Assembly: GCF_010500815.1 (NCBI RefSeq)
Contig: NZ_JAAAMG010000002.1
Location: 321,730 to 385,729 of the forward strand
Origin: Jiella pacifica
GTDB taxonomy: Bacteria; Pseudomonadota; Alphaproteobacteria; Rhizobiales; Rhizobiaceae
Direction: 5' to 3'
Length of the DNA stretch: 64,000 bases
Notes under the pieces: model-generated
Database searches by the model: none
The model's input: only the letters and a program-made list of their open reading frames with translations
Told to the model about the DNA's origin: nothing
Position numbers and translations under genes: made by a program
Shown here: positions 40,382-60,587 of the stretch, one piece after another
Position numbering within the stretch: position 1 is the first letter of the stretch
How the letters are laid out: every line of letters begins with the position of its first letter

Positions 40382-40392
40382 GAGCACGACCG

Positions 40393-43546: not shown

Positions 43547-44310
43547 AGAACACGGAACGCTTCGCCTCCACGGCGCTGATCGTCGGCTTCTTCCTTGTCT
43601 GGGAACTCGCCTGCATTGCCTTCGGCATCAGCGAGATCGTGCTGCCGCGGCCCTCGCAGATCCTCATGACGCTGATCGAGCGCTGGCCGGCGCTGGTGCC
43701 GCACACCGTCCAGACGCTCTATACGACGCTGGTCGGCTTCGCGCTCGGGGTCGGGATCGGGGTGGTGATCGGCATGATCATCGGCTCCTCGCGCGTCGCC
43801 TACAACGTCGCCTTCCCGCTGCTCGTCGGGCTGTCCTCCATCCCGAAGGTAGCGGTGGTGCCGATCTTCGTCCTGTGGTTCGGGGCCGGGACTGTGCCGG
43901 CCGTGCTGACGGCCGTGGTGATCTCGATCTTCCCGGTGGTGGTCAATGTCGCCACCGGCCTCGCCACGACGGAGCCGGAACTGGAAGACGTTCTGCGGAC
44001 GCTGCGGGCGAGCCGCACCGACATTCTTTTCAATGTCGGTCTGCCGCGGGCGATGCCCTATTTCTTCGCCTCGCTGAAGGTTGCGGTGACCCTCGCCTTC
44101 GTCGGTTCGGTCATCGCCGAGACGGTCGCCGGCAATCGCGGCATCGGCAACATGATGCTGATCGCCTCGGCCAACTTCAACGTGCCGCTGACCTTCGCCG
44201 GCCTGTTCATCCTCGCCGCCATGGGAATCGGCCTCTATCTGATCTTCGCCGCGATCGAGAAACGGGTCACCGGCTGGGCCAACCGCAAGGCCGAACTGGC
44301 CATGGGCTGA
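43543..44310 (+). CDS. SsuC/TauC-type ABC transporter permease
   Basis: A 255-residue inner-membrane subunit with about six membrane segments and the EAA motif LEDVLRTLRASRTDILFNVGLPRAMPYF in the C-terminal half. It starts within the ATPase stop (ATGA) and completes the importer with 39347-40381 and 42653-43546. Confidence 0.92.
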   Translation: MKNTERFASTALIVGFFLVWELACIAFGISEIVLPRPSQILMTLIERWPALVPHTVQTLYTTLVGFALGVGIGVVIGMIIGSSRVAYNVAFPLLVGLSSIPKVAVVPIFVLWFGAGTVPAVLTAVVISIFPVVVNVATGLATTEPELEDVLRTLRASRTDILFNVGLPRAMPYFFASLKVAVTLAFVGSVIAETVAGNRGIGNMMLIASANFNVPLTFAGLFILAAMGIGLYLIFAAIEKRVTGWANRKAELAMG

Positions 44311-44364
44311 GGCGATCGGAGCAAGCGACATGGCAGAGACCAGCATCGAGGGACAGCGGGCACC

Positions 44365-45822
44365 ATGACCGAACGGACGATCCTCTGCGCCTCGGCCGCC
44401 GAGGGCGAGGACTACCGCCTCCGCCGCGGCCGCGCCATCAGCCTCGTGGACGGGCGTATCGCCGCGATCACCGACGCGTCGACGCAAGCACCGGGACGAG
44501 AGCCAAGGCTGTTCGCCATGCCCGCGCTCGTCAACGCTCACGATCACGCCCGGCCGATCCGGTCGAGCGCCTTCGGCGCCCTCGGCATCCCTCTGGAATT
44601 GTGGCTGCAGTATCTGGCGCTGCTACCGGCGGTCGATCCCTATCTCGCGGCGACGGCCTCGCTCGGGCGCAGCGCCCTCGGCGGCTGCGGCGCGGTGATG
44701 GTCCACTATACCCGGACGAACGGGTTCACCGCCCTGCCGCAGGAAGCGGCCGAAGTCGCGCGGGCGGCACGGGACGTCGGCGTGCGGATCGGCTTCGCGG
44801 TCGCGCTGAAGGACCGCAACCCGCTGGTCTACGGCCCGTCGGAGGCGGTGCTTTCACTGATGCCCGAGCAGGGGCGTCGGACCATCGAGCAGCGGCTGTC
44901 GAAGCCGCCGCTTTCCCCGACCGACCAGATCAGGCTTGTCGACGAGGTCGCCGAGGCGGCCGGATGTGATCTCGTCGACGTCCAGTACGGGCCGACGGGC
45001 GTCCAGTGGTGCACGCCCGAGCTTCTCGAAGCCGTCGCCCGGGCTTCTGCCGAGACCGGACGCCGCGTCCACATGCACTGCCTCGAAACCGGCTACCAGC
45101 GGGACTGGGCCGACCGGGAGTTCCCTGACGGCATGATACGCTTCCTGAAGGAGATCGGGCTGCTCGGTCTGCGGCTGACGCTGGCGCACTGCACCCATGC
45201 CCGACCGGACGAACTCGAGCTGATCGCCGAGTCCGGCGCGACGATCGCCGTCAATACCCATTCCAACCTCGCGCTGAAATCGGGCATCGCACCCGTCGCC
45301 TCTATGCTCGCTGCCGGATGCAACGTCGCACTCGGCCTCGACGGCACCAGCTTCGACGAGGACGACGACGCCTTCAGCGAAATGCGCCTCGCCTTCGAAC
45401 TGCATCGCGGCTGGGGCTTCGACGAAACGATCTCGGAGCCGGGGATGCTGCGGATCGCGACCCGCAACGGCCGTGCGAGCGTCACGGGATCGGCAGAGGG
45501 CGGCATCCTTTCGGCAGGCATGCCCGCCGACGTCCTCCTGCTCGACGAGGCGGCGCTGGACGAGTACCGCCTCGTCGCCGAACTCTCGCCGGTCGACCAG
45601 CTGTTCGCCCACGGCCGGGCGCGGCACATCGCCGAGCTAATCGTCGCCGGCCGCTCGATCGTCAAGGACGGGCGGCTGACCGGCATCGACCACGCGGCCC
45701 TGCAAGGCGAGCTCGTCGAGCGCTTCCGGCATGGAATGCAATCGGGCGGACCGCTCGCCGAGGCGCTGCCGGAACTCGGCAAGGCCATGCACCGGCACTT
45801 CCGCGACGCGCCGTGCTGCTGA
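44365..45822 (+). CDS. amidohydrolase family protein, cytosine/guanine deaminase-like
   Basis: A 485-residue mononuclear-metal amidohydrolase. Metal and catalytic residues are NAHDHA (His59, His61), His238 with Glu241 in HMHCLET, His275 in LAHCTH, and Asp326 in LGLDGTSF. The HCxET spacing is typical of the S-triazine/guanine/5'-deoxyadenosine deaminase branch. It is the last gene of the operon and would remove an amino group from, or hydrolyse, a nitrogen heterocycle. Confidence 0.85.
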   Translation: MTERTILCASAAEGEDYRLRRGRAISLVDGRIAAITDASTQAPGREPRLFAMPALVNAHDHARPIRSSAFGALGIPLELWLQYLALLPAVDPYLAATASLGRSALGGCGAVMVHYTRTNGFTALPQEAAEVARAARDVGVRIGFAVALKDRNPLVYGPSEAVLSLMPEQGRRTIEQRLSKPPLSPTDQIRLVDEVAEAAGCDLVDVQYGPTGVQWCTPELLEAVARASAETGRRVHMHCLETGYQRDWADREFPDGMIRFLKEIGLLGLRLTLAHCTHARPDELELIAESGATIAVNTHSNLALKSGIAPVASMLAAGCNVALGLDGTSFDEDDDAFSEMRLAFELHRGWGFDETISEPGMLRIATRNGRASVTGSAEGGILSAGMPADVLLLDEAALDEYRLVAELSPVDQLFAHGRARHIAELIVAGRSIVKDGRLTGIDHAALQGELVERFRHGMQSGGPLAEALPELGKAMHRHFRDAPCC

Positions 45823-45910: not shown

Positions 45911-46327
45911 TCAGTCCGCCCGTTCGAAGCGAATGTCCTGGGCGCCCTGCCACAGCACCATCGGCCCGAGTTCGGCAAGATTTTCAAGGCCCGAGGTCAG
46001 GGTGATGAAGTGATTGCCCGCGAGCTGGCCCATCTTCGAGGCGAAGTGGACGCCGCCATAGGCGAGCAGGATCTCGGTCTCGCTGATGCCGCCGGGATAG
46101 AGGATGAACTGGCCGGGCGCCGGGTAGCTGGTGTGATTCTCGTAGCCGAGGCCGAAATCGTGGTCGCCGAGCGGAATCCAGACGCCCTCGCCGCTCCAGC
46201 GGACATGGACGATCTTGCTCTCGTAGAGGAGCAGCCTGGCGAAGGCCTCGCAGGTCTTCGGCGCCTTCTCGGTTTCGAGCCGGGCGTCGAAGGTGAACGG
46301 TCCGGCGGTGATCTTCAGCTTGCTCAT
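45911..46327 (-). CDS. DUF3830-like cyclophilin-fold protein
   Basis: A 138-residue protein resembling the DUF3830 family, a small beta-barrel related to cyclophilin-like proteins: KITAGPFTFDARLETEKAPKT at the start, VHVRWSGEGVWIPLGD near 55-70, PAPGQFILYPGGISETEILLAYG near 85-107. The function of this family is unknown; members often neighbour amidohydrolases and transporters for nitrogenous compounds, as here. I chose ATG 46327; the frame is open to 46375. It is divergent from the LysR gene. Confidence 0.75.
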   Translation of the reverse strand: MSKLKITAGPFTFDARLETEKAPKTCEAFARLLLYESKIVHVRWSGEGVWIPLGDHDFGLGYENHTSYPAPGQFILYPGGISETEILLAYGGVHFASKMGQLAGNHFITLTSGLENLAELGPMVLWQGAQDIRFERAD

Positions 46328-46500
46328 GCAGGTCCTGCTCGGGGAAAAATGGCCGGGGGTCAAACCCGCCGGCAAAGGGAAGGGCCGGCCGCCGTCGGCC
46401 TGCCGGGAATCGTTCGAGCCTAGCGACGCCGACTGCGCAGCTCAAACGCCGATTGACTGCTAGCGTGATGCCGGAAGGTATACACGAGGAGGCCGGCGCC

Positions 46501-47421
46501 ATGCGTCACATGCGGATCTGGACCTATGTCGACGAGGCGGCCCGCCTCGGCTCGCTTCGCAAGGCCGCGGAAAAGCTGAACATCACGCCCTCGGCACTGC
46601 AGCGACGCATCCGCGACGTCGAGGAGGACCTCGGCACGCCGATCTTCGAGCGGACCGCCCAGGGCATTCACCTGACGGCCGCCGGCGAAGGCATGGTGCG
46701 GTGGATCCGCGGCCAGTCGGCCGATCTGGAGCGGCTGAAGTCGCAGATCGAGGACATGTCCGGCCTCAGACGCGGCAACGTCCGCATCGCCTGCAGCCAG
46801 GCCCTGGTGCCGTTCTTCCTGCCGCAGGAAATCTCCGAGTTCCGCAGCCGCTTTCCGCAGGTCCGCTTTTCCGTCGAGGTGCAGGATCACGGCGTCGCCC
46901 TGCGCATGCTCCGCGACTTCGAGAGCGATCTCGCGATCGTCTTTCGCCCGGACCGCAGCCCCGACATCCATCCCCTGTTCGTCCTCGGCCAGCGGCTCGT
47001 CGCAATCATGCACCGGGACCATCCGCTGGCCGAAAAGGACCAGCTGCGGCTGCGCGACTGCGCCGCCTATCCGGTCGCCCTGCCGAGCAGCGGCTTCGGC
47101 ACCCGCGCGATCATCGACGACCTCCTGGCGGGAAGCTCCACCCGCTTCGACGTCCAGCTGCAGTCCAACTCCTTCGAGATGCTGCGCAATCTCGCCCTGT
47201 CCGGTGAAGTCGTGACCTTCCAGGCCGAGATCGGCGCGCCGCGCGAGGACCCGGACGACGAGTTGGTCTACCGCGTCCTCAGCGACCGCGATCTCGCCCA
47301 CGGCCCGCTCGTCGTCTGTCAGTTGAAGGGGCGGGCCCTGCCGGTCGCGGCGGCAAAATTTGCCGAGCAGATGGCGCGCAGCCTGGAAGCGATCCGAAGC
47401 TTGCCGAGCGTTCCCGCCTGA
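46501..47421 (+). CDS. LysR family transcriptional regulator
   Basis: A 306-residue regulator with an N-terminal helix-turn-helix (about 5-65, SLRKAAEKLNITPSALQRRIRDVE) and a LysR effector domain (about 90-295). I chose ATG 46501 after GAGGAGG; an in-frame GTG at 46453 is possible. It is divergent from the DUF3830-like gene and close to the deaminase operon, so it may regulate either, but no clear T-N11-A palindrome was found in the gap. Confidence 0.88.
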   Translation: MRHMRIWTYVDEAARLGSLRKAAEKLNITPSALQRRIRDVEEDLGTPIFERTAQGIHLTAAGEGMVRWIRGQSADLERLKSQIEDMSGLRRGNVRIACSQALVPFFLPQEISEFRSRFPQVRFSVEVQDHGVALRMLRDFESDLAIVFRPDRSPDIHPLFVLGQRLVAIMHRDHPLAEKDQLRLRDCAAYPVALPSSGFGTRAIIDDLLAGSSTRFDVQLQSNSFEMLRNLALSGEVVTFQAEIGAPREDPDDELVYRVLSDRDLAHGPLVVCQLKGRALPVAAAKFAEQMARSLEAIRSLPSVPA

Positions 47422-47835
47422 CGGTGCGGGCGGCATCCGGATCGAGGCCACATCGCCGCGCTCGGCCCCGAGGCAAGCGCCGCGCGGCCCTTTCACGCCT
47501 TGCCCCTTCGGTGATTGCAAGGGACTTCGGTGACGGCGGGAGAGGACGATGGGCTGCATCTCATTTTTGAGATATGATCGAGCGTACCAAAGCCGCCACA
47601 TCAGCATAGTGCCGTCTTCCGGCTGGGGCGATGACCAAGCGTGCACAGGCGGCGAAGGCGAGCCGGCCGGCCCGCGCTCTCTGGAATTTTCGACCGGCCG
47701 ATGCCATTTCGCGCTGCGAGACGGGATGAACGCTTGCCTGTTCCGGTTCGGGCGAAGCTGGATTAATCCTCGTCGCAGAGATCCGTCATCCAAGCGGTTC
47801 GTCGCGCCGCCCTCGAACGTTCGGGAGATCCTCGA
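47422..47835. other. 414-base leader region of the XRE regulator gene
   Basis: It contains the palindrome at 47559-47572 with a possible -10 TATGAT at 47573-47578, leaving about 255 bases between the promoter and the GTG start at 47836. A frame of 96 codons (47549-47839) runs through it but begins inside the presumed promoter and matches nothing recognisable, so I do not call it. Confidence 0.6.
47559..47572. promoter_or_regulatory. XRE operator candidate, copy 1
   Basis: A palindrome, TCTCA-TTTT-TGAGA. The same 14 bases (and a following T) recur at 48862-48875. Here it occupies the spacer between a poor -35 region and TATGAT (47573-47578), a position suited to autorepression. Confidence 0.7.
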
Positions 47836-48873
47836 GTGACACGCTCCGACCTGAACTCCTTCGAAAGCGAAGCGCGGCACCCGAGCGGCCGCAACCGTAC
47901 GGAGTGGCCGCAGTGGAGGCGCAAGGATGTCGGCGAGATGCTGTCCGAGACCGGCGAGAACGCGCCGATCCGGCTGAGCGACATCGGCGCGCGGCTACGC
48001 GCCTTTCGCATGGGCCGCGGGCTGACGCCCGAAGCGGTTGCCGCGAGCCTCGGCATTTCCCGGGCAGCGCTTTACCGGGCCGAGAAAGGGGAGATCCCGA
48101 AGATCGAGACGCTGACGCGCATCGCCGACGTCCTCGGCACCTCGCTGCCCAGCCTGCTCGGCGTCGGCGTCGAATATGTCGACACCGCCATCGCCTTCTT
48201 CGAGCGCATGCGACAGATCGAGGAAGAGGCCGAGCAGATCATCGGCCTGTTCGGTCCGGTCTCCTACCTTCTCACCTCCGATGCCTATGACGGGATGCTC
48301 CAGGAGGTGATGCTGGACGCGATCCCGCCCGGCGAGGATGCGTTTGGGGCGGCCCGACAGTCGGTGGACGCGCTGATGTCCGTGCTGCGCCAGCGCAAGA
48401 GCTGGTACAAGCGACGGCAACCGCTGATCGTCAGCCTGATCGCTTCCTCCGACCTCGAGCGCTTTCTCCTGCACGGCGCCCTCGGCCGCCACGATCTGCC
48501 CCCGGAAACCGTGGCGGAGCGCCGGCACCTCGCCCGCAGCGAGGTCGAGCGGATCGCGACCATGCTGCGCCGCCCGCCTCCGGGCGTCCAGATCGGCATC
48601 GCGCTCGAGCCGACGCCCGCGACGACCTTCCAGATCTTCCGCCAACGCCACCGCTCGACGCTGGCGATAAGCCCCTTCCGACTCGGCGAGCAGCCGAACG
48701 TGAGAATCGGCGTCGCGCTGATCACCTCGGCGCCGGAGCCGATGCGACTGCACGAGGACATCGCGCGCAGATTGTGGGAAGGAGCGCTGAAGGGTGACGC
48801 CGCGGCGGACTTCCTCGACGGCCTGCTCGGTCGATACGGCATCGACGGCAAAGGCCAGTCGTCTCATTTTTGA
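47836..48873 (+). CDS. XRE/Cro-CI family transcriptional regulator with a C-terminal effector region
   Basis: A 345-residue regulator. The helix-turn-helix lies at about residues 48-102 (IGARLRAFRMGRGLTPEAVAA, SRAALYRAEKGEIPKIETLTRIA). The remaining 240 residues are of unknown fold, probably a ligand or dimerisation domain. The GTG at 47836 follows GGGAG; an internal ATG at 47938 is also possible. Its last codons, Ser-His-Phe-stop, are written by the second copy of its presumed operator. The TRAP-PyrK-PyrD operon begins 76 bases downstream, which makes it the likely regulator of that operon. Confidence 0.87.
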   Translation: MTRSDLNSFESEARHPSGRNRTEWPQWRRKDVGEMLSETGENAPIRLSDIGARLRAFRMGRGLTPEAVAASLGISRAALYRAEKGEIPKIETLTRIADVLGTSLPSLLGVGVEYVDTAIAFFERMRQIEEEAEQIIGLFGPVSYLLTSDAYDGMLQEVMLDAIPPGEDAFGAARQSVDALMSVLRQRKSWYKRRQPLIVSLIASSDLERFLLHGALGRHDLPPETVAERRHLARSEVERIATMLRRPPPGVQIGIALEPTPATTFQIFRQRHRSTLAISPFRLGEQPNVRIGVALITSAPEPMRLHEDIARRLWEGALKGDAAADFLDGLLGRYGIDGKGQSSHF

Positions 48874-48875
48874 GA
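48862..48875. promoter_or_regulatory. XRE operator candidate, copy 2, overlapping the regulator stop codon
   Basis: An identical TCTCATTTTTGAGA palindrome. The bases TCT CAT TTT TGA are at the same time the last three sense codons and stop of the XRE gene. It lies seven bases upstream of the -35 box TTGACA of the TRAP operon. Confidence 0.7.
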
Positions 48876-48882
48876 TTTCCGC

Positions 48883-48911
48883 TTGACACCCTCGCCCCGG
48901 GCGGCTCTTCT
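48883..48911 (+). promoter_or_regulatory. promoter candidate of the TRAP/orotate operon
   Basis: A consensus -35 TTGACA (48883-48888), a 17-base spacer and TCTTCT (48906-48911) as a weak -10. The binding-protein ATG follows at 48950. A strong -35 with a poor -10 suits activation by a regulator bound just upstream. Confidence 0.55.
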
Positions 48912-48949
48912 CACGCCTTCCGTCAACCATGGGCAGGGGTACTTCTTCG

Positions 48950-49972
48950 ATGATTGGGACGCATTTTCGCATTGCCGGCGTCGTCGCACTGGCGGCGACG
49001 CTTTTGGCCGGCACCGCCGCCGCGCAGGAATTCACGGCGCGCATCGGCCATCTGGAGTCGCCGCAGCAGGCGCGCCACCAGGGCCTCGAAATGGTCGCGG
49101 ACCTCGTCAAGGAGCGGACCAAGGGCGCGGTCGAATTCACCATCTACCCGGCCGGACAGCTCGGTCAGGCGCGTGAGATGAACGAGGGCGTCCAGCTCGG
49201 CGTCATCGAGGGCACGGTTTCGCCCGCCGCCTTCCTCGCCGGCTTCAATCCGGCGGTGTCGATCCTCGACGTTCCCTTCCTCTACCCGGCCGACCGCAAA
49301 AAGGCGTCCGAGCTGCGCGATGGTCCCTTCGGCGATGCCGTGCTCGACAGCTTCGAGCCGCTCGGCTTCAAGGCGGTGGCGATCTGGCCGAACGGCCGCA
49401 AGAGCTTCACCTCCAACAAGCCGATGGAAAGCGTCGACGCCTTCGACGGCCAGCGCTTTCGGGTCATGGACTCGCAGGTGCTGATGGCTCAGTTCAACGC
49501 CGTCGGCGCCTCCGCCGTGCCGCTGCCCTTCGGCGAGCTCTATACCGCGCTGCAGACCGGCGTGGTCGACGGCCAGGAGAACGCCCTCGATACGATCGCG
49601 ACGATGAAATACAACGAGGTCCAGAAGAACCTCCTCGTCTCCGGCCACGGCGCCAACGAGGACGTCGTCCTGTTCAACCCGGCCTGGTGGAACTCGCTTC
49701 CCGCCGAGTACCAGACGATCATCGTCGAGGCCTTCGACGACGTCAGCCCGAAGGTCGAGGCGATCAAGGAAGCCTCGCAGGACAAGGCGCTCAAGACCCT
49801 CAAGGACGCCGGCATGAACGTGCGCGAGCTGACCGACGAGGAGCGCCAGACGATGCGCGAGAAGATGTATCCGAAGGCCCGCGAGGCCTATCTCGCCCAG
49901 GCCGGCGATGCCGGCAAGACGATCGTCGACGCCTACGAGGCCGAGTACCAGAAGGTCACCGGCGAAAAGTAA
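48950..49972 (+). CDS. TRAP transporter substrate-binding protein (DctP family)
   Basis: A 340-residue periplasmic binding protein with a signal peptide (about 1-25, ending TAAAQ). The DctP fold carries the arginine region FDGQRFRVMDSQVLMAQFNAVGASAVPL near 165-192, where the conserved arginine binds a carboxylate of the ligand, and the VDGQENALDTI segment near 205. A carboxylated ligand such as orotate, dihydroorotate or an N-carbamoyl amino acid would fit both the fold and the operon. I chose ATG 48950; the frame is open to 48929. Confidence 0.92.
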   Translation: MIGTHFRIAGVVALAATLLAGTAAAQEFTARIGHLESPQQARHQGLEMVADLVKERTKGAVEFTIYPAGQLGQAREMNEGVQLGVIEGTVSPAAFLAGFNPAVSILDVPFLYPADRKKASELRDGPFGDAVLDSFEPLGFKAVAIWPNGRKSFTSNKPMESVDAFDGQRFRVMDSQVLMAQFNAVGASAVPLPFGELYTALQTGVVDGQENALDTIATMKYNEVQKNLLVSGHGANEDVVLFNPAWWNSLPAEYQTIIVEAFDDVSPKVEAIKEASQDKALKTLKDAGMNVRELTDEERQTMREKMYPKAREAYLAQAGDAGKTIVDAYEAEYQKVTGEK

Positions 49973-49988
49973 TCGCCGGCCTTTTCGC

Positions 49989-50022
49989 GCCCGCCGTGCA
50001 CCGCGCGGCGGGCCTTTTCTTT
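49989..50022 (+). terminator. intra-operon terminator/attenuator after the TRAP binding protein
   Basis: GCCCGCCG (49989-49996) pairs with CGGCGGGC (50006-50013) and is followed by CTTTTCTTT, a canonical intrinsic terminator. It lies between the binding-protein gene and the membrane-subunit genes, so it probably lets through only part of the transcripts and keeps binding protein in excess. Confidence 0.8.
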
Positions 50023-50046
50023 CCTGAAGTCTGAAGGAAATGCCGC

Positions 50047-50553
50047 ATGAAGGCGGTCCTCGAGACCTTGGGGCGGGTGGAAGAATTCCTGCTCGCCAGC
50101 ATCATGATCGTCATGACCGTGCTGTTCAGCGGGTCGGTGCTGGTCAGAGCCCTGTCCGACGATCTGTTTCGCCAGATCGCCTGGGTCGACGAGGCGACGC
50201 GCTACCTGATGGTATGGATGGTCTTCCTCGGCCTCGGCCTCGCCCTCCAGCGCGGCCGCCATATCGCCATGGGCTCGTTGCTCGAACGCCTGCCGCAGCT
50301 GCCGCAGAGCCTCGTGTGCAAGCTGATCGACGTCGCCGGCCTCGGCTTCAGCGGCTTCATCGCCTGGTTTGGCACCGACATCGCGCTCCTGGTGCTGCGC
50401 TCCGGCCAGGCGAGCCCGACGCTCGGCGTCACCACGGCGCTCCTTTATGCGGCGCTGCCGGTCGGGTTCGCGCTTCTCGCCATCCGTTACCTCGCGAGCC
50501 TCTTCGGCGTCTACGACCGATGGGCCGCCACAACCCCGGCGGACGCCCACTGA
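50047..50553 (+). CDS. TRAP transporter small permease (DctQ family)
   Basis: A 168-residue inner-membrane protein with four membrane segments, the DctQ layout, including WVDEATRYLMVWMVFLG near residue 42 and the RGRHIAMG segment near 72. The start follows GAAGGAAAT. Its stop overlaps the start of the large permease (TGATG). Confidence 0.92.
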   Translation: MKAVLETLGRVEEFLLASIMIVMTVLFSGSVLVRALSDDLFRQIAWVDEATRYLMVWMVFLGLGLALQRGRHIAMGSLLERLPQLPQSLVCKLIDVAGLGFSGFIAWFGTDIALLVLRSGQASPTLGVTTALLYAALPVGFALLAIRYLASLFGVYDRWAATTPADAH

Positions 50554-51836
50554 TGCTCGCGCTCGTCATCTTCCTCCTCGCCCTCGTCCTTCTCGGCCTC
50601 GGCTTCGAGATGTTCCTGGTGCTCGGCCTGCCGGGCCTCGCGATCAAGAGCGGCTATTTCGGCGCCCTGCCCGACATCGTCGTCGGCCAGAAGATCGTCG
50701 CCGGCATCAACCAGTCGACGCTGCTCGCCATTCCCTTCTTCATCTTCGCCGCCGAGCTGATGGCGAGCGGACGCATCGCCCGCGACCTTACGAGCCTCGT
50801 CAAGGCCTTCCTCGGCCACCGCGCCGGCGGCATCGGCTACACCACCATCGCCGGCTGCGCCGCCTTCGGCGCGGTCTCCGGTTCGGCTCCCGCCACCGTC
50901 GCGGCGCTTGGCCGGATCATGTATCCGGAGCTGATCAAGGCCGGCTACCGCGAGCGCTTCGCCCTCGGCCTGATCGTCTCCTCGGCCGAGACGGCGCTGC
51001 TCATCCCGCCCTCGATCACGCTGATCATCTATGGCTGGCTGACCGGAACCTCGATCGCCGGGCTGTTCGCCGGCGGCCTCGTCATCGGCATCTTCCTGGC
51101 GCTGGCCTTCGGCCTCTACGTCTTCGTCGACAGCATCTTCAGCGACCGCAAGGGCACGCCGGCGATGCCCTGGGGCGAGCGGCTGGCGGTGATCCGCGCC
51201 GCCGGATGGGCGCTCGGCCTGCCCGTCATCATCCTCGGCGGCATCTATGGCGGCATCTTCACCCCCACCGAGGCGGCGGCGGTCAGCGTCGTCTATGCCG
51301 TCCTCGTCGAGGCGGTGGTCTATCGCGAACTCGGCTTGCGCGACCTCTTCCGGGTCGCCGGGCAGGCGGCGATCACCAATTCGGTGATCTTCATCCTCCT
51401 CGGCATGGGCAGCCTCGTCTCCTACTTCATCACCCTCGGCCAGTTCCCGGCGCTGGTGATCGACTTCATGCAGACGATCGGCGCCAACTGGCTGGTCTTC
51501 CTTCTGATCGTCAACGTCCTGTTCCTCCTCGCCGGGATGTTCATCGACCCGAACTCGGCCCTGCTCCTCCTGGTGCCGGCGCTCTATCCCGTCGCCATGA
51601 CCTTCGGCATCGACCCCATCCATTTCGGCCTGATCGTCTGCCTCAACATCTGCATCGGCATGATCACGCCGCCCTTCGGGCTCGACATCTTCGTGGCATC
51701 GTCGACCCTCGACAAGCCGGTGATGACCATCATCGCGGGTGTCTGGCCCTTCGTCCTGATCAACATCGCGACGCTCCTCGTCGTCACCTACGTGCCCCAG
51801 CTGTCGACCTTCCTGCCGAAACTCATTCTGGGCTGA
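50553..51836 (+). CDS. TRAP transporter large permease (DctM family)
   Basis: A 427-residue inner-membrane protein with about twelve membrane segments. It has the DctM signatures GCAAFGAVSGSAPATVAALG near 108-127, LIPPSITLIIYG near 148 and GGIYGGIFTPTEAAAVSVVYA near 230. It starts one base into the DctQ stop. With 48950-49972 and 50047-50553 it forms a complete sodium- or proton-driven uptake system. Confidence 0.93.
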   Translation: MLALVIFLLALVLLGLGFEMFLVLGLPGLAIKSGYFGALPDIVVGQKIVAGINQSTLLAIPFFIFAAELMASGRIARDLTSLVKAFLGHRAGGIGYTTIAGCAAFGAVSGSAPATVAALGRIMYPELIKAGYRERFALGLIVSSAETALLIPPSITLIIYGWLTGTSIAGLFAGGLVIGIFLALAFGLYVFVDSIFSDRKGTPAMPWGERLAVIRAAGWALGLPVIILGGIYGGIFTPTEAAAVSVVYAVLVEAVVYRELGLRDLFRVAGQAAITNSVIFILLGMGSLVSYFITLGQFPALVIDFMQTIGANWLVFLLIVNVLFLLAGMFIDPNSALLLLVPALYPVAMTFGIDPIHFGLIVCLNICIGMITPPFGLDIFVASSTLDKPVMTIIAGVWPFVLINIATLLVVTYVPQLSTFLPKLILG

Positions 51837-51846
51837 GGAAAAACCG

Positions 51847-52692
51847 ATGCAAGCGACGCCCCATCCTTTGCCCTCTCCGACGCCCCTGGCGCCGCCGCGC
51901 GCCGGCGAGTTCGACGCCCGGATCGTCTCCAACGAGCCGGTCAACGCCGAGTACCGGCTGATGACCGTGGAAGTCCCGGATGGCGCGGCCGAAGCGCGGC
52001 CCGGGCAGTTCTTCCAGATCCTCTGCCCCCACAGCGGCGCGCTGCAGCCCTTCTTCCGCCGGCCGATGAGCATCTACCGCATCGATCCGGCCGCCGGGCA
52101 GTTGTCCTTCCTATACAAGGTGACCGGCACCGGGACCCGCACCATGGCGGAGCTCGAACCCGACGCCACGATCAACCTCTTCGGTCCGCTCGGCAACGGC
52201 TTCACCCTGCCGGAAGACGGCGCGCCGATCGTCCTCCTCGGCCGCGGCGTCGGCCTCGCCACCATGGCGCCGCTGGTGCCCTTCGCCCGCAAGGCCGGCC
52301 ACGCCGTCACCGCCATCCTCAGCGCCCGCACGCCGGAGCTGGTGATGTCCGAGGCAGAGTTCGTCGACGCCGGAGCCAACGTCCTCGCCGTCACCGATTC
52401 GCAGGGGACTTCGGCGGTCGAGAACGTCGAGGACATGCTGCACGGGCTGCACGCCGAGGGCCGCCTCGGCGCTCTCTATGTCTGCGGGTCCAACCGGCTG
52501 ATGCTGGCGGCGCAGCGGGTCGCCCGCCGCCTCGGCCTGTTCGGCGAGGCCGCGCTGGAGCAGCAGATGGCCTGCGGCGTCGGCATGTGCTTCTGCTGCG
52601 TCCGGCCGTTCCGCCAGGGCGACGAAATCGTCCACCGCCGGGTCTGCAGCGAAGGCCCGGTCTTCCCGCTCCTGGAGGCACTCGAATGGTAG
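51847..52692 (+). CDS. pyrK: dihydroorotate dehydrogenase electron-transfer subunit (PyrK)
   Basis: A 281-residue iron-sulfur flavoprotein. A ferredoxin-reductase-type FAD domain has RRPMSIY (71-77), an NAD-binding domain follows (VLLGRGVGLATMAPL near 140), and a C-terminal [2Fe-2S] site has Cys243, Cys248, Cys251 and Cys267 in the PyrK spacing. PyrK passes electrons from class 1B dihydroorotate dehydrogenase to NAD+. The pair is typical of Gram-positive bacteria; alphaproteobacteria normally use the membrane-bound class 2 enzyme. It overlaps pyrD by seven bases. Confidence 0.9.
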   Translation: MQATPHPLPSPTPLAPPRAGEFDARIVSNEPVNAEYRLMTVEVPDGAAEARPGQFFQILCPHSGALQPFFRRPMSIYRIDPAAGQLSFLYKVTGTGTRTMAELEPDATINLFGPLGNGFTLPEDGAPIVLLGRGVGLATMAPLVPFARKAGHAVTAILSARTPELVMSEAEFVDAGANVLAVTDSQGTSAVENVEDMLHGLHAEGRLGALYVCGSNRLMLAAQRVARRLGLFGEAALEQQMACGVGMCFCCVRPFRQGDEIVHRRVCSEGPVFPLLEALEW

Positions 52693-53627
52693 ACCTGTCG
52701 GTCGACTGCGGCGGGATCCGTCTTGCCAATCCGGTGATGCCGGCCTCCGGCACCTTCGCCTCCGAGCTTGCCGACATCATCGAGCTCCAGCGCCTCGGCG
52801 CCTTCGTCACCAAGACCGTCACCCCCGGCAAGCGCCAGGGCAATCCGACGCCGCGCGTCTCCGAGGTTCCTGGCGGCATGCTGAACTCGATCGGCATCCC
52901 GTCGAAGGGCGTCGATGCCTTCATCGACGAGACGATCCCGCTTTACGCAGACTACGACGTGCCGCTCGTCGTCTCGATCTCCGCCGACACGCCGGACGGC
53001 TTCGCCGACATCTGCCGGCGCGTCAGCGTTCCCGGCGTCGCGGCGGTCGAGGTGAACATTTCCTGCCCCAACATCGAGGATGATGGACGGGCCTTCGCCA
53101 TGCGGCCCGAAACCACCCTCGCCGTCATGCGCAAGCTGCGCCAGGCGACCGACCTGCCGCTCTGGGCGAAGCTGACCCCCAACACCGGCGAGATCCCCGC
53201 CGTGGCGCAGGCGGCGGAGGAAGGCGGCGCCGACGCGCTGGTCGTCGCCAACACCATCCTTGCCATGAGCGTCGACATCCGCACCCGCCGCGCCAGCCTC
53301 GGCAGGGTCATGGGCGGGCTGTCCGGTCCGGCGATCAAGCCGATCATCCTGCGCATGGCGTATCAGTGCGTGCGCGCCGTCCAGATTCCGGTGATCGGCT
53401 GCGGCGGCATCATGACCGCCGCGGACGCACTCGAATATCTGATCGTCGGTTGCCGGGCCGTTCAGGTGGGCACCGCCACCTTCGTCCATCCGGGCGCGAT
53501 GCTCACCGTCATCGACGGGCTGGAAGATTATTGCCGGCAGAACGGGATCGATCGCATCGCCGATCTCACCGGGACGCTGAGCGCCGAGGCCCACGACGCC
53601 TCGCTGGAATGGGAAGCCATCGCGTGA
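52686..53627 (+). CDS. pyrD: dihydroorotate dehydrogenase, class 1B catalytic subunit (PyrD-like)
   Basis: A 313-residue FMN-binding TIM-barrel enzyme. Lys43 (VTKTVTPGKRQGNPTPR), the GGMLNSIGIPS loop (63-73) and the active-site cysteine Cys127 in NISCPN identify class 1. The adjacent PyrK makes it class 1B, which exchanges electrons with NAD+/NADH and can run either way. Dihydropyrimidine dehydrogenase subunit PreA is a relative but normally has a ferredoxin tail, missing here. Coupled by overlap to pyrK and to the amidohydrolase gene (GTGA). Confidence 0.88.
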   Translation: MVDLSVDCGGIRLANPVMPASGTFASELADIIELQRLGAFVTKTVTPGKRQGNPTPRVSEVPGGMLNSIGIPSKGVDAFIDETIPLYADYDVPLVVSISADTPDGFADICRRVSVPGVAAVEVNISCPNIEDDGRAFAMRPETTLAVMRKLRQATDLPLWAKLTPNTGEIPAVAQAAEEGGADALVVANTILAMSVDIRTRRASLGRVMGGLSGPAIKPIILRMAYQCVRAVQIPVIGCGGIMTAADALEYLIVGCRAVQVGTATFVHPGAMLTVIDGLEDYCRQNGIDRIADLTGTLSAEAHDASLEWEAIA

Positions 53628-54934
53628 GCCTGACGCCCCCCATCGCCGCTGGCGCAAGGCCCGTCGAAACCGCCGACCTGTCCGACCTCGCGGGTCTGGC
53701 CGAGAAGATCTTCGCCGACGTCGCGGCACTGTCGCCGGACGTCCTCGGCGTCTCGCGGCCGGCCTACAGCACGGTCGAGACCGAGACTCTCGACTATCTG
53801 GAGACCTTCGCCCGAGAGTTCGGCCTTCGCACCTGGCGGGACACGGGCGAAAACCTGGTGATCGCCGCGCCCGGCGACACCTCGCCGGAAGCGCCATGCG
53901 GCTACTTCGGTTCGCATGTCGATTCGGTTCCCCAGGGCGGCAATTTCGACGGGCTCGCCGGCGTCGTCGCGGCGCTCTTGACGTTGATCGCGCTGGTGCG
54001 GGAGGGCGCGCCGATGCGCGTTCCGCTGCGCGTCCTCGCCCTGCGGGGCGAGGAGAGCGCCTGGTTCGGCAACGCCTATATGGGCTCCCAGGCGCTGTTC
54101 GGCCGGCTCGGCGAAAAGGCCCTCTCGACCCGCCGCCGCGACGGCCGGGGGACGCTCGCCGACGCCATGCGCGAGACCGGCATCGCCATGGAGAGGATCG
54201 AGGCGGGCGAGCCGCTCGTCGACACTGAGAAGATCCGCTTCTTCCTCGAACTCCACATCGAACAGGGCCCGGTCCTCGTCGAGCGTCAGTGGCCCGTCGC
54301 GGCCGTCACCGGGATCCGCGGCAACGTCCGCCACCGGGAAGTCCAGTGCATCGGCCAGGCCGGTCATTCCGGCGCGGTGCCGCGCTGGCTGAGGCGCGAC
54401 GCGGTGTTCGCGACGTCCGAACTGATCATGCGCATGGACGATCACTGGGCGACCATCCAGCAGCATGGCGGCGATCTCGTCCTGACCGCCGGCATCTTCC
54501 AGACCGATCCCGCCCGTCACGCCATGTCGCGCATTCCCGGCGAATGCACCTTCAGCTTCGAGGCGCGCAGCCAGGACAGCGGCACCTTGCGGGCGTTCGA
54601 GGAACTGTTGAAATCCGAGTGCCGAATCATCGAGCGCGAGCGGCGGGTGAAGTTCGTCTTCGACGAGGCCGTGCGCAGCGATCCAGCCGAACTCGATCCG
54701 GCGATGGTCGATGCCATCCTCAAGGCGGCTTCCGCGGAGGGTCTGCCGGCCGAGGCGATCCCCAGCGGCGCCGGCCACGACGCCGCGATCTTTGCCCAGG
54801 CAGGTGTTCCGACCGGCATGATCTTCGTGCGCAACCGCAACGGCTCGCACAATCCCGACGAACACATGGAGATCGAGGATCTCGTCGCAGCCGTCGGCGT
54901 GATGCGGCGGGTGGCGCGGGATCTGACGCAGTGA
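53624..54934 (+). CDS. M20 N-carbamoyl-amino-acid/ureido amidohydrolase
   Basis: A 436-residue zinc enzyme of the hydantoinase/carbamoylase family (N-carbamoyl-L-amino-acid hydrolase, allantoate amidohydrolase, beta-ureidopropionase). Metal-site residues: His98 in GSHVDSVPQGG, Asp109 in NFDG, Glu143-Glu144 in RGEESAWFG, His211 in ELHIEQGPVLVE, and the C-terminal NGSHNPDEH. Its GTG start overlaps the pyrD stop (GTGA), so it is translated with the dehydrogenase. Hydrolysis of N-carbamoylaspartate to aspartate, ammonia and CO2 would fit the operon; this is inference. Confidence 0.87.
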   Translation: MSLTPPIAAGARPVETADLSDLAGLAEKIFADVAALSPDVLGVSRPAYSTVETETLDYLETFAREFGLRTWRDTGENLVIAAPGDTSPEAPCGYFGSHVDSVPQGGNFDGLAGVVAALLTLIALVREGAPMRVPLRVLALRGEESAWFGNAYMGSQALFGRLGEKALSTRRRDGRGTLADAMRETGIAMERIEAGEPLVDTEKIRFFLELHIEQGPVLVERQWPVAAVTGIRGNVRHREVQCIGQAGHSGAVPRWLRRDAVFATSELIMRMDDHWATIQQHGGDLVLTAGIFQTDPARHAMSRIPGECTFSFEARSQDSGTLRAFEELLKSECRIIERERRVKFVFDEAVRSDPAELDPAMVDAILKAASAEGLPAEAIPSGAGHDAAIFAQAGVPTGMIFVRNRNGSHNPDEHMEIEDLVAAVGVMRRVARDLTQ

Positions 54935-55211
54935 GCCGAGGCGCCGAGATCGCCCGAATCGTCGCCGCGGCCGTTCGGGCTCTGCCGCCGGCCATAGCGT
55001 GTTGGCATGCCGCCGAGTTTACCAAATTCGGCGTCGATGCCGCCGTGGTCGCCCGCGAAGCCAAACCACCGGAGGAAAGCCGCGCCCTTGATATTGAAGC
55101 CGGCGGCAGGGTGCGAGTAAGGGTGGGGAGGCCTGATGCGGATTTGCAGTGGTCGGGAAGAGACTGGCGCTCGCCCGACGGGCCTCACTCATTCCAGGAA
55201 AGGCACCGGAC

Positions 55212-55904
55212 TTGACGAGCTTCACCGACAAAACCCTGATCGCCGAAATGACCGCCAAGATGCTCCTCGAGGTCAAGGCGGTCCATTTTCGCGCGGATGA
55301 GCCCTTCCGCTTCACCTCCGGCTGGGCGAGCCCAGTCTATATCGACTGCCGCAAGCTGATCTCCTATCCGCGGGTGCGCAATACGCTGATGGACTTCGCC
55401 TCCTCGGTGATCCTGCGCGACATCGGCTTTGAATCCCTCGACGCCATCGCCGGCGGCGAGACCGCCGGCATCCCCTTCGCCGCCTGGATCGCCGATCGCC
55501 TGTCGATGCCGATGCAGTATGTCCGCAAGAAGCCGAAGGGCTTCGGGCGCGACGCGCAGATCGAGGGCGACTACCGCGAGGGCTCGCGGATCGTGCTGGT
55601 CGAGGATCTCTCCACCGACGGCCGCAGCAAGATCCGCTTCTGCGAAGCGCTGCGCAAGGCCGGCCTGACGGTCGAGCACACCTTCGTCATCTTCCACTAC
55701 GACATCTTCCCCGAGACCAAGCAGACCCTGAAGGACAACGGCATCCAGATGCACGCCCTCGCCACATGGTGGGACGTCCTGAAGGTGGCGCGCGACCAGG
55801 GCTACTTCGAAGAATCGATCCTGCAGGAAGTCGAAGCCTTCCTCCACAATCCGATGAGTTGGTCGGCCGCCCATGGCGGTGCGAGCTCGTATCCCAAGGA
55901 CTAG
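55212..55904 (+). CDS. pyrE: orotate phosphoribosyltransferase (PyrE)
   Basis: A 230-residue phosphoribosyltransferase of the long alphaproteobacterial PyrE type, which makes orotidine 5'-phosphate from orotate and PRPP. The opening [20 protein letters not shown] (34-53), [17 protein letters not shown] (103-119) and the PRPP loop [12 protein letters not shown] (128-139) are visible; the loop differs from the usual EDxxTTGGS. No ATG fits the family N-terminus, so I chose TTG 55212 after AGGAAAGG; the frame is open back to 55149. It is separated by 277 bases from the upstream gene and may have its own promoter. Confidence 0.87.
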
Positions 55905-55916
55905 GAGCAGCAGTTT

Positions 55917-56231
55917 ATGTTGAGCGACGTCAAGCGCATCATCGCCGAAGGCCATCTCGGCGTTCGGACCTACGAAGAGTTCGCCCAGTCAAGCCTCCAG
56001 AAGGCCGCCCAGGGCGGCGAAGACGCCGTGGCGCTCTTCGTGTTGGCCAAGATCGTCCAGCCGTTCTGCGACTACTATTTCGATCAGGCGCTGAGCGAGG
56101 CGACGGCCGTCGCGTTTCGCCAGGAGATCCTCGAGACGATCGAGGCCTATGAGGCGGCCGGCAGTCTCGCCGACAAGAATGCCGTTCTCGCCCGCGCGGT
56201 CCAGAACAGCCTGGCGAACGCGGACGTTTGA
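55917..56231 (+). CDS. small protein of unknown function
   Basis: A 104-residue, mostly helical acidic protein with no signal peptide or membrane segment. It has the segments FAQSSLQKAAQGGEDAVALF and ILETIEAYEAAGSLADKNAV but no motif I recognise. It starts 12 bases after pyrE, with a weak GGAGCAG ribosome binding site, so it is co-transcribed with pyrE. Its single-cysteine, tryptophan-free, alpha-helical composition suggests a partner or regulator protein, which is speculation. Confidence 0.7.
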   Translation: MLSDVKRIIAEGHLGVRTYEEFAQSSLQKAAQGGEDAVALFVLAKIVQPFCDYYFDQALSEATAVAFRQEILETIEAYEAAGSLADKNAVLARAVQNSLANADV

Positions 56232-58139: not shown

Positions 58140-59432
58140 ATGCCTCAGACCGACGTCGTGCCTGGGCCCAGCCATCCCACCGGGGATCGCATCGAGGCCG
58201 ACTACCTTCTCGAAACGCCCGGCGCAGTCGAGAAGGCGGCGGAGGTCATGGCGGGCGAGCAGTCGAGCGGCACGTTCCTGCCCGTCCCCGGCGAGACGCC
58301 GGAACTGAAGGCGCGGGCGGCGGCACGGGTCGAACGGATCGAGGTAATCGACACCATCGGGGAGCCTTCGCTGCCCGAAGCCGCGGAGCCGGCCGAGACG
58401 GGCCGTTTCACCAGGGCCCGGGTGACGCTCTCCTGGCCGCTCGACAACATCGGCGCCTCGCTGCCCAACCTTCTCGCCACCATCGCCGGCAATCTCTTCG
58501 AACTGAAGCAGGTGTCCGGCCTGCGCCTCCTCGACATCCGCCTGCCGCGGGCCTTCGCGGCCCGATATCGTGGCCCGCAATTCGGCATCGACGGCACCCG
58601 GCGCCTCGCCGGGGTCTTCGATCGCCCGCTGATCGGCACGATCGTCAAGCCGAGCATCGGGCTGACGGCTGAGGGAACGGCCGAGATCGTCGACACTCTC
58701 GCCGCCGCCGGCATCGATTTCGTCAAGGACGACGAACTCCAGTCGGACGGGCCCGGTTGCCCGTTCGAGGCGCGCGCCCGCGCTGTGATGGCGGTGATCG
58801 ATCGCCATGCCCAGCGCACCGGCAAGAAGGCGATGTTCGCCTTCAACATCACCGGCGATCTCGACGAAATGCGTCGCCGGCACGACCTCGTGCGCGACCT
58901 CGGGGGCACCTGCGTCATGGCCAGCATCAATTCGATCGGTCTCGTCGGCATGATCGAGCTCGCCCGCCATTCGCAGCTGCCGATCCACGCCCATCGCAAC
59001 GGCTGGGGCTACCTTTCGCGCCACCCGGCGCTCGGCTGGTCCTACGGCGCCTGGCAGAAGATCTGGCGGCTGGCCGGCTGCGACCACATGCATGTCAACG
59101 GTCTTCAGAACAAGTTCTCCGAGGACGACGCCAGCGTCATCGAGGCGGCGCGCGCCTGCCTGACGCCGCTTTCCGACGACGCGCCCTGCCTCGCCATGCC
59201 GGTATTCTCCTCCGGCCAGACGGCGCGGCAGGCGCCGGAGACCTTCGTCAGGCTGGGATCGAGCGATCTGATTCACGCCGCCGGCGGCGGCATCATGGCA
59301 CATCCGCACGGCCCGGCCGGCGGCGTCGCCAGCATGCGCGAGGCCTGGGAGGCGGCGATGGCCGGCACGCCGCTCGACGTCCATGCCAAGACCCATCCGG
59401 CGCTCGCGGCAGCATTGCAGACATTTCGCTAG
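58140..59432 (+). CDS. RuBisCO-like protein (form IV large-subunit homologue)
   Basis: A 430-residue homologue of the RuBisCO large subunit. The N-terminal region has the SSGTFLPVPGET motif (42-53). The barrel has GTIVKPSIGL (Lys170, the RuBisCO general-base position), DFVKDDE with the carbamylation lysine Lys196 and metal ligands Asp198 and Glu199, IHAHRNGWG (His284) and HVNGLQNKFSED at loop 6. The second lysine of the KPKxGL motif is serine, and other CO2-fixing residues differ, so it is not a carboxylase of the Calvin cycle. Relatives act in methylthioribulose salvage or as acid-sugar phosphate decarboxylases/isomerases. Adjacent TRAP and beta-hydroxyacid dehydrogenase genes favour the latter. 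Confidence 0.88.
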   Translation: MPQTDVVPGPSHPTGDRIEADYLLETPGAVEKAAEVMAGEQSSGTFLPVPGETPELKARAAARVERIEVIDTIGEPSLPEAAEPAETGRFTRARVTLSWPLDNIGASLPNLLATIAGNLFELKQVSGLRLLDIRLPRAFAARYRGPQFGIDGTRRLAGVFDRPLIGTIVKPSIGLTAEGTAEIVDTLAAAGIDFVKDDELQSDGPGCPFEARARAVMAVIDRHAQRTGKKAMFAFNITGDLDEMRRRHDLVRDLGGTCVMASINSIGLVGMIELARHSQLPIHAHRNGWGYLSRHPALGWSYGAWQKIWRLAGCDHMHVNGLQNKFSEDDASVIEAARACLTPLSDDAPCLAMPVFSSGQTARQAPETFVRLGSSDLIHAAGGGIMAHPHGPAGGVASMREAWEAAMAGTPLDVHAKTHPALAAALQTFR

Positions 59433-59454
59433 GATCGACCCCGACGGGGCGATC
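59433..59454. terminator. hairpin between RuBisCO-like and dehydrogenase genes
   Basis: GATCGACCCC pairs with GGGGCGATC (one bulged A) around a GAC loop in the 37-base gap between two convergent genes. No T-run. Confidence 0.5.
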
Positions 59455-59469
59455 GGCAGGCCTCGCGCC

Positions 59470-60351
59470 CTACCCCTTCTGCCGGAACGCCTTCGCCGCC
59501 TCCGGCGCCATCGCCTCGCCGAAGCCGCTTTCGTTAAGCCATCCCAGCGCCGAGAGCACGCCTTCGGCAACGTCCCGGCGGGTTCCGGTCGCCTCGACGA
59601 GCTTGCCGTAATAGCCGAGGTCCTTCAGGGCATTGGCATTGGTGAAGCGCATCTGGCTGGTCTCGCCTTCCAGCAGGAAGGGCGCCACCCGCTCCAGCGC
59701 CGCGCCGTGGCCGCCGCCCCGCCGCAGACAGTCGACGAGAATCTCCGCGGCAATGCCGTTCTCGGCGGCGCAGGCCGCCGCCTCGCTGATCAGCGTCACC
59801 GTACCGAGCGAGACGAAGTTGTGGATCAGCTTCAGCATCTGTCCGGAGCCGACCGGGCCGGCATGGAAGCGGTTTTCCGAAAAGGCCTCGAACAGCGGCG
59901 TCAGTTCCGCGACGGTCGCGTCCTCGCCGCCGATCAGAAGGTTCAGCCGCCCCTCCTCCGCCTCCTTCGGCGTTCGCGTCATCGCCGCATCGACGAAGCG
60001 GCCGCCGCCCGCCGCCACGCGCCCGGCCGCACGCATGGTCACGGCGGGAATGCCGGTCGAGCAGTCGACGACGATCGTTCCCGGTTGCAGCGCGTCGACG
60101 AGGCTGTCCTCGCGAAGGATCAACTCCTCGATCTGCGCGCTGCCGGTGACGACGAGGATGACGACGTCGCTCGCGGCGACGAGATCCGCCACCTTATCGA
60201 AGCGCCGTGCGCCGGCCTCGTCGAGATCCGCCGTCGGCTGGTTGCCGGGATGGGCGAGATAGCCGAGCGGCCAGCCGGCCTTCAGGACGTTGCGGGCGAT
60301 GCCGTGGCCCATCATGCCGACGCCGACGATGCCGATGGTCTGTTTGCTCAT
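59470..60351 (-). CDS. NAD(P)-dependent beta-hydroxyacid dehydrogenase (3-hydroxyisobutyrate dehydrogenase family)
   Basis: A 293-residue dehydrogenase with the nucleotide motif GIVGVGMMGHGIARN (7-21), the substrate motif DCSTGIP (96-102), TRTPKEAEEG (125-134) and the catalytic lysine Lys174 in GSGQMLKLIHN. The family oxidises 3-hydroxyisobutyrate, tartronate semialdehyde and four-carbon acid-sugars. It is the last gene of the TRAP operon and convergent with the RuBisCO-like gene; an acid-sugar substrate is inferred. Confidence 0.87.
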   Translation of the reverse strand: MSKQTIGIVGVGMMGHGIARNVLKAGWPLGYLAHPGNQPTADLDEAGARRFDKVADLVAASDVVILVVTGSAQIEELILREDSLVDALQPGTIVVDCSTGIPAVTMRAAGRVAAGGGRFVDAAMTRTPKEAEEGRLNLLIGGEDATVAELTPLFEAFSENRFHAGPVGSGQMLKLIHNFVSLGTVTLISEAAACAAENGIAAEILVDCLRRGGGHGAALERVAPFLLEGETSQMRFTNANALKDLGYYGKLVEATGTRRDVAEGVLSALGWLNESGFGEAMAPEAAKAFRQKG

Positions 60352-60376
60352 GAGGTCTTCCGTCCGTTTTCGAATG

Positions 60377-60540
60377 TCAGGCGAGAGCCCGCTGGATCGC
60401 CTTGCTCATCTCGCTGCACCGGGCCCTGCCGCCGAGGTCGGTGGGAACGTATTCCCCCGCCCCGGCTCCGTCCGGACGCGGCCCGATGCCCTCGCCTTCG
60501 ACGGTCGCGATCCGTTCGCCTGCTTTGCCGTCTTCGTCAT
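60377..60540 (-). pseudogene. internally deleted remnant of an isopropylmalate/tartrate dehydrogenase-family gene
   Basis: From ATG 60540 (MTKTAKQ), and after a frame change, the sequence reads ERIATVEGEGIGP, the N-terminus of isocitrate/isopropylmalate/tartrate dehydrogenases. After a few codons it continues in frame with EYVPTDLGGRARCSEMSKAI and ends QRALA-stop, which is the C-terminus of the same family. About 300 internal codons are missing. The remnant sits between the TRAP large permease and the hydroxyacid dehydrogenase, so the operon once carried a second dehydrogenase. Confidence 0.75.
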
Positions 60541-60587
60541 GGCGTCGAGTCTCGTTGCGGGATCGGCCGAAAGGCGAGCGAAAGACC

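Follow-up and report, generated by a model that had tools for sequence, protein, structure and literature searches.

Why would an alphaproteobacterium that carries a class 2 dihydroorotate dehydrogenase encode a class 1B enzyme (PyrK and PyrD) as well, in one gene string with a tripartite ATP-independent periplasmic (TRAP) transporter and an M20-family amidase? We addressed this question for a 64,000-nucleotide stretch of Jiella pacifica (NCBI RefSeq assembly GCF_010500815.1, contig NZ_JAAAMG010000002.1, positions 321,730 to 385,729; hereafter the window, with coordinates counted from its first letter), whose source genome comprises 5.77 Mb in 74 contigs and is 97% complete. Judged from sequence comparison, the string is probably an operon for the catabolic use of orotate, a reading to which we assign a probability of roughly 0.8. 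To our knowledge, most of what is known about orotate breakdown to aspartate comes from an anaerobic fermenter. We found no description of an orotate-degrading operon in proteobacteria in the literature searched, which was mostly open-access, so a prior mention is possible.

Gene content, proposed pathway and importer

The presence of the operon was confirmed, and every gene of the string has an open frame on the + strand (Table 1). These frames and their profile matches bear out the gene content listed in an earlier note made from the sequence alone (TRAP transporter, PyrK, class 1 PyrD, M20, PyrE and a small protein). That note had described one coupled gene string, a description that holds from dctQ through the M20 gene: dctQ and dctM have one base in common, pyrK/pyrD and pyrD/M20 overlap, and the gap between dctM and pyrK is 10 bp. 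It does not extend to pyrE and the small gene, which follow the M20 gene after 277 bp as a second block. Position 47559, where the operon had been said to begin, is the first base of a palindrome (TCTCATTTTTGAGA), with no gene start there, and neither the XRE-family regulator nor its operator figured in that account. Overall, the observation was confirmed and its interpretation was supported in part.

Comparison of the gene set across genomes, which had been suggested as a check, showed the same order in many of them, and this recurrence of an identical gene order argues against a chance arrangement. We scanned species genomes with ten aligned DctP sequences and kept the best 80 of 184 relatives; these 80 come largely from Rhizobiales and Rhodobacterales, with some Betaproteobacteria and Gammaproteobacteria, one Desulfovibrio and one Desulfobulbaceae bin. 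At least 6 kb of sequence is present downstream of dctP in 72 of the 80 loci. PyrK, PyrD and M20 are all present in 63 of these 72, and among the 63 full loci we found an XRE homologue in 56, the small protein in 49, PyrE in 49 and class II PyrC in 40. All locus counts give presence within the examined stretch and were taken from tblastn maps, as the open reading frame (ORF) caller missed genes in lower-GC loci. One Desulfovibrio locus (L114) shows TRAP genes followed by M20, PyrC and PyrE, without PyrD. On the best explanation, the string would be an orotate-utilisation operon scattered by horizontal transfer.

In the proposed pathway, the TRAP system would import orotate, and the NADH-linked PyrD-PyrK enzyme would reduce it to L-dihydroorotate, the reverse of the biosynthetic direction. 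With NADH as donor, orotate reduction is favourable and lies within the capability of class 1B enzymes. A class II PyrC (encoded on contig C45 in this genome and by an operon gene in many relatives) would then open the ring to give N-carbamoyl-L-aspartate, which the M20 enzyme would cleave to L-aspartate, CO2 and ammonia. PyrE may divert part of the orotate to orotidine monophosphate (OMP) and further to uridine monophosphate (UMP); as the sole PyrE it would serve de novo synthesis too. The XRE protein would bind TCTCA-N4-TGAGA both ahead of its own gene and ahead of dctP, its ligand probably being orotate or an intermediate of the pathway. The sequence from orotate through dihydroorotate and carbamoylaspartate to aspartate had been anticipated in the earlier note, and its logic is supported by the gene set.

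The substrate of the importer is suggested by its binding protein. Among solved structures, PDB 4NN3 is the nearest to DctP by a wide margin (430 bits; runner-up 179 bits), and a DctP model of modest quality (predicted local distance difference test score, pLDDT, 72) returned the same structure, Desal_2161 of Desulfovibrio salexigens, as its top Foldseek match (62% identity). According to two publications, orotic acid is bound in 4NN3 (PMC11668362) and is counted among newly found TRAP transporter ligands (PMC5812351). Orotate is a well-supported candidate ligand of the operon DctP, in keeping with the import proposed earlier. The protein is 95% identical to the DctP of Jiella avicenniae.

PyrDK, the M20 amidase and ring opening

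Three proteins of the genome match PF01180, namely the operon PyrD, a class 2 PyrD on contig C23 (TIGR01036, 366 bits, above cut-off) and a PreA-like protein on contig C14, which has ferredoxin-type cysteines and reads NFGCPH where the operon PyrD has NISCPN. A class 1B PyrDK beside a class 2 enzyme had been expected, and the search for a separate class 2 pyrD was positive. Because the genome has this second dihydroorotate dehydrogenase, we regard the operon PyrDK as accessory. Homologues of the operon PyrD occur sporadically, in 34 of 397 genomes of the order (E ≤ 1e-40) and 12 of 385 genomes of the class (E ≤ 1e-60), the latter with identities as low as 40%, so that some may be of another type; the genus-mate G349 gave no match to it. 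A class 2 PyrD above cut-off is also carried by 26 of the 34 order genomes. The remaining eight all belong to one genus (g65, family f18; L080-L087), and in their loci a histone-deacetylase-like gene adjoins PyrK and PyrD. Seven of the eight also have PyrE nearby, and five have class II PyrC. The examined stretches of these loci yielded no M20, and TRAP genes appear in L081 only, at 28-38% identity. Their class 1B PyrDK looks like the housekeeping dihydroorotate dehydrogenase.

The f18/g65 genomes, with a seemingly housekeeping PyrDK that is often accompanied by PyrC and PyrE, lend some weight to the idea that PyrDK and PyrE of the window are likewise a plain housekeeping pyrimidine set, as does the finding that the operon PyrE is the only copy detected. 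The class 2 PyrD on C23 and the sporadic occurrence of the operon PyrD speak against it, and no M20 amidase, orotate-type importer or small protein was seen to accompany the f18/g65 set. We consider this explanation barely credible.

The M20 gene adjoins PyrK-PyrD in 25 of the 26 accessory loci of the order sample, which comprise 24 loci (L055-L078) and the window, all with M20, and a 26th genome (G027, L079) whose PyrK-PyrD pair stands without it. The M20 gene thus tracks accessory PyrDK and was not seen where PyrDK appears to be a housekeeping enzyme. The PyrD of L079 carries F instead of N at orotate-site position 67 and perhaps acts on a different substrate. In M20, D114, E148 and E149 are invariant, and H103, H216 and H414 are retained in at least 95% of 92 rows; we take these residues to bind metal. 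Among solved structures, allantoate and N-carbamoyl-amino-acid hydrolases are closest to it. The one other M20 of this kind found in the genome (E ≤ 1e-10; 31% identical) lies on contig C14 near a dihydropyrimidinase-like gene. From the gene content we infer N-carbamoyl-L-aspartate as substrate, which would make the M20 clade a gene candidate for ureidosuccinase (N-carbamoyl-L-aspartate amidohydrolase, presumably EC 3.5.1.7).

The importer varies around these enzymes. Among the 25 loci with accessory PyrDK and M20, it is of the TRAP type in 16, a major facilitator superfamily (MFS) carrier in three (L074, L076, L077) and ATP-binding cassette (ABC)-like in six (L065, L066, L067, L069, L072, L075). 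The six show no TRAP genes in the examined stretch and have ABC and XRE genes near, and four of them have an NMT1-like binding protein; the ABC system or the MFS carrier would presumably import orotate in these loci. Importers swapped around constant enzymes are the pattern expected of a catabolic module.

In the 91 PyrD rows with an M20 neighbour, of which 84 are distinct, no variation was seen at residues K43, N67, G70, N124, S126, C127, N129, K162, N189 and T190; by what we take to be the numbering of the Lactococcus enzyme, they include the class 1 orotate site and the catalytic cysteine. At least 95% of 90 PyrK rows retain cysteines 243, 248, 251 and 267. The residue counts exclude the f18/g65 rows, L079 and proteins that contain an internal stop or are shorter than 200 amino acids, and the order-sample and species-genome sets overlap in genomes, so the rows are not independent. 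The residues also bear on whether the natural substrate could be a modified orotate, another 6-carboxypyrimidine or a hydantoin acid. A crystal ligand need not equal the physiological substrate, and K74 in the IGIPSKG loop, invariant in the 91 rows, is replaced by D, V or G in the eight PyrDs of f18/g65. The class 1 orotate-site residues are retained, however, and the set is often accompanied by the orotate-specific PyrE and the dihydroorotate-specific class II PyrC; another substrate is thus quite improbable.

For ring opening, the genome has a single TIGR00856 match, a class II PyrC at the end of contig C45 (442.7 bits; cut-off 293), which is most likely the enzyme in question. Across the 26 non-f18 genomes, such a match lies inside the operon in 10 and elsewhere in 13, and none was found in three; in relatives, a class II dihydroorotase gene frequently follows that for M20. 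Contig C8 encodes, next to PyrB, a class I PyrC-like protein that reads DARVFIG at the position of the HxH that we take to be the catalytic motif of this class and that is on that account probably of the inactive partner type. The dihydroorotase-like protein at 41181-42656, previously put forward for ring opening, was rejected as unneeded, unlinked and, by its scores, a hydrolase of the allantoinase type. It barely passes the allantoinase model (362.2; cut-off 357.9), a broad dihydroorotase model is passed as well, and no homologue was found in the 10-kb flanks of the operon of the closest relative (L090). A decayed pyrC in the gap between M20 and pyrE was likewise rejected, since tblastn of three PyrCs gave chance-level pieces (best E 0.87 in the gap of the window). 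The protein at 41181-42656 sits in a cluster (39347-45822) with an NMT1-type binding protein, a short-chain dehydrogenase/reductase (SDR), an ABC ATPase and permease, and a second amidohydrolase; this is probably a nitrogen-ring uptake and hydrolysis cluster of its own.

PyrE, the regulator and the small protein

A single PyrE scores above the TIGR00336 cut-off in the genome, the operon copy, although at 97% completeness an assembly gap could hide a second; three weaker matches are presumably APRT, Prs and ComF. With no second PyrE above cut-off, we rejected the operon gene as an extra copy, and the dedicated salvage role once proposed for it is not supported by the same search for a housekeeping pyrE. 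Of the two absences that the earlier note had named as refuting, that of another pyrE was thus observed and that of another pyrD was not. As the only copy detected, the operon PyrE would also be the biosynthetic enzyme. Of the 26 genomes, nine yielded no PyrE besides the operon copy, five have a second copy in addition to it, 11 have PyrE outside the operon only, and in one no PyrE was found. In the genus-mate G349, a PyrE of another type (192 aa, 27% identical) lies between relA and lepB, and the genome of the window shows the operon copy alone, so that the operon gene has seemingly displaced the native one there. This second type of PyrE, with 192 aa and 25-27% identity to the operon enzyme, was seen between relA and lepB in the family members G349 and G336, which are without the operon (L185-L187); an acpS-like gene also lies in this interval in L186.

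These counts can be set against pyrimidine salvage as the sole function, in which TRAP would import orotate or dihydroorotate, PyrDK would work in the biosynthetic direction and PyrE would make OMP, while M20 would clear surplus carbamoylaspartate or be unrelated. Salvage would suit the nine genomes in which PyrE is in the operon and the sole copy found, the loci that have TRAP genes without PyrK, PyrD and M20 (8 of 72), and a PyrD orotate site that matches apparently biosynthetic class 1B enzymes. It fits poorly with the most constant partner being M20 (25/26), which would destroy a UMP precursor, with the 11 genomes whose PyrE is found solely outside the operon, and with PyrDK being unnecessary for salvaging imported orotate. 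We therefore regard salvage alone as unlikely and retain the catabolic reading.

The palindrome TCTCATTTTTGAGA occurs in two exact copies in the window (0.09 expected with up to two mismatches), and TCTCAWWWWTGAGA is found at two places in the whole 5.77 Mb genome, both in the operon, with none for a control pattern. Among the 62 species-set XRE loci, 54 have TCTCA-N4-TGAGA within one mismatch in the gap between the XRE gene and dctP or pyrK (38 exact), counted with 30 extra bases on either side. All 1.2 Mb of these loci hold 89 such sites at up to one mismatch; most therefore sit in XRE-to-operon gaps. In all six ABC-like loci, an exact palindrome lies between the XRE and ABC genes and another before pyrK, and in several relatives it also precedes ABC transporter genes. 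The palindrome is a putative operator of the XRE protein, whose binding we infer from these positions.

Homologues of the small 104-aa protein occur in 29 of the 397 order genomes, including 23 of the 26 accessory-PyrDK genomes and none of the eight f18 genomes. Distant homologues with weaker scores were found in six genomes of f35/g41 without operon PyrD, and no operon enzyme genes were found around them in the four regions examined (L176-L179); an arginase-like gene lies beside the homologue in L176. The model of the small protein comprises five helices (pLDDT 94.5). A fold search returned no PDB match at E ≤ 0.001, and Pfam and NCBIfam searches over 52 members gave scattered weak matches, none for the window's own protein. 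Our guess is that it may be a partner or stabiliser of a pathway enzyme.

Several points weigh against a catabolic operon. The ring-opening gene is unlinked to it in the genome of the window, and, given the 277 bp between M20 and pyrE, the latter may have a separate promoter. M20 exceeds the cut-off for the broad subfamily model TIGR01879 only, with its remaining NCBIfam matches below cut-off. The eight f18/g65 PyrDs carry identical orotate-site residues; as these PyrDs are apparently biosynthetic, the residues support orotate but are uninformative on flux direction. The ligand comparison with 4NN3 covers orotic acid only. The eight loci with an orotate-type TRAP system but without the three enzymes (L103, L106, L109, L111, L123, L125, L144, L159) indicate that the transporter is also used otherwise, perhaps in orotate salvage or another orotate route; no alternative pathway genes were evident there on quick inspection, low-GC loci such as L159 being read poorly by the gene caller. 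Finally, eight of the 62 XRE loci showed no palindrome in the gap; among the MFS loci it is imperfect in L076, and none was seen outside the XRE gene in L074 and L077.

Table 1 Features of the proposed orotate operon in the window (positions count from the first letter of the 64,000-nucleotide stretch).
Feature	Position	Strand	Evidence or remark
Palindrome TCTCATTTTTGAGA, operator-like, 5' of the XRE gene	47559-47572	none	Exact copy
XRE-family regulator (helix-turn-helix and C-terminal part of ~200 aa)	47836-48873	+	PF13560/PF01381; ATG at 47938 is a possible true start
Palindrome TCTCATTTTTGAGA, second copy, at the XRE stop, before dctP	48862-48875	none	Exact copy
DctP, TRAP solute-binding protein, orotate type	48929-49972	+	PF03480, 285 bits
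DctQ, TRAP small permease	50047-50553	+	PF04290
DctM, TRAP large permease	50553-51836	+	PF06808 (342 bits), TIGR00786
PyrK, FAD/NAD and 2Fe-2S subunit of class 1B dihydroorotate dehydrogenase	51847-52692	+	PF10418 Fe-S domain above cut-off
PyrD, class 1B catalytic subunit, proposed orotate reductase	52686-53627	+	NF005574, 347 bits (cut-off 269); TIGR01037, 301 (cut-off 270)
M20 hydantoinase/carbamoylase-family amidase, proposed N-carbamoyl-L-aspartate amidohydrolase (ureidosuccinase)	53624-54934, GTG start	+	TIGR01879, 253 (cut-off 204)
PyrE, orotate phosphoribosyltransferase	55212-55904, TTG start	+	NF001729, 401 (cut-off 245); TIGR00336 above cut-off
Small 104-aa protein	55917-56231	+	No Pfam/NCBIfam match at E ≤ 0.001

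Directly upstream of the operon are genes for a DUF3830 protein (45911-46375, - strand) and a LysR regulator (46453-47421). Further along the window are a RuBisCO large-chain-like protein (58140-59432, PF00016), a 416-aa ORF without a Pfam match (59383-60633) and a TRAP large permease (60588-62234, - strand); the region 58140-62234 looks like an acid-sugar type cluster with a RuBisCO-like protein.

Implications and comparison with known systems

If the catabolic reading is correct, a gene set with its own regulator predicts orotate breakdown in many cultured alphaproteobacteria, and the operon M20 supplies a sequence candidate for the carbamoylaspartate hydrolase. The reading further suggests that two classes of dihydroorotate dehydrogenase run in opposite directions within one cell, and the orotate-type importer could, together with the dedicated regulator and palindrome, yield an orotate sensor. 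We consider a broader proposal slightly more likely than not, namely that the M20 clade is the ureidosuccinase gene and that the operon is a modular, mobile orotate regulon of Proteobacteria and some Desulfovibrio, with class 1B acting as orotate reductase beside class 2. In the genome of the window, the operon PyrE would have replaced the native one, tying essential UMP synthesis to a catabolic operon, and the small helical protein would be a component of the pathway.

Parts of this system have known counterparts. Desal_2161 (PDB 4NN3) shares with the operon a binding protein, 62% identical to DctP, but by itself the structure implies no pathway. Import of orotate is also the point of likeness with the carriers DctA of Salmonella and E. 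coli and OroP of Lactococcus, which are represented here by reference titles that mention orotate utilisation or orotate as a pyrimidine source; genes for catabolism do not figure in these titles. ErtE (NF058540), the N-carbamyl-L-glutamate amidohydrolase of an ergothioneine pathway, is also an M20 carbamoylase, with a substrate that is the next longer of the acidic carbamoyl amino acids; the operon M20 scores 276 bits against the ErtE cut-off of 520 and is therefore not the same enzyme.

The Pyd pathway (PreT/PreA, dihydropyrimidinase and an M20 beta-ureidopropionase) follows the same three-step logic with members of the same protein superfamilies, and acts on uracil and thymine. PreA-, M20- and dihydropyrimidinase-like genes lie on contig C14 of the same genome, whereas the operon PyrD scores as a dihydroorotate dehydrogenase and not as PreA, and the operon M20 shares only 31% identity with its counterpart on C14. 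Clostridium (Zymobacterium) oroticum ferments orotate through an NAD-linked dihydroorotate dehydrogenase, N-carbamoylaspartate and a ureidosuccinase step to aspartate. The operon route differs in being mostly proteobacterial, in standing beside a class 2 PyrD, in being known from genes, and in having a regulator and palindrome of its own as well as an importer of the TRAP, MFS or ABC-like type; in its proposed intermediates and enzyme steps, it resembles this fermentation.

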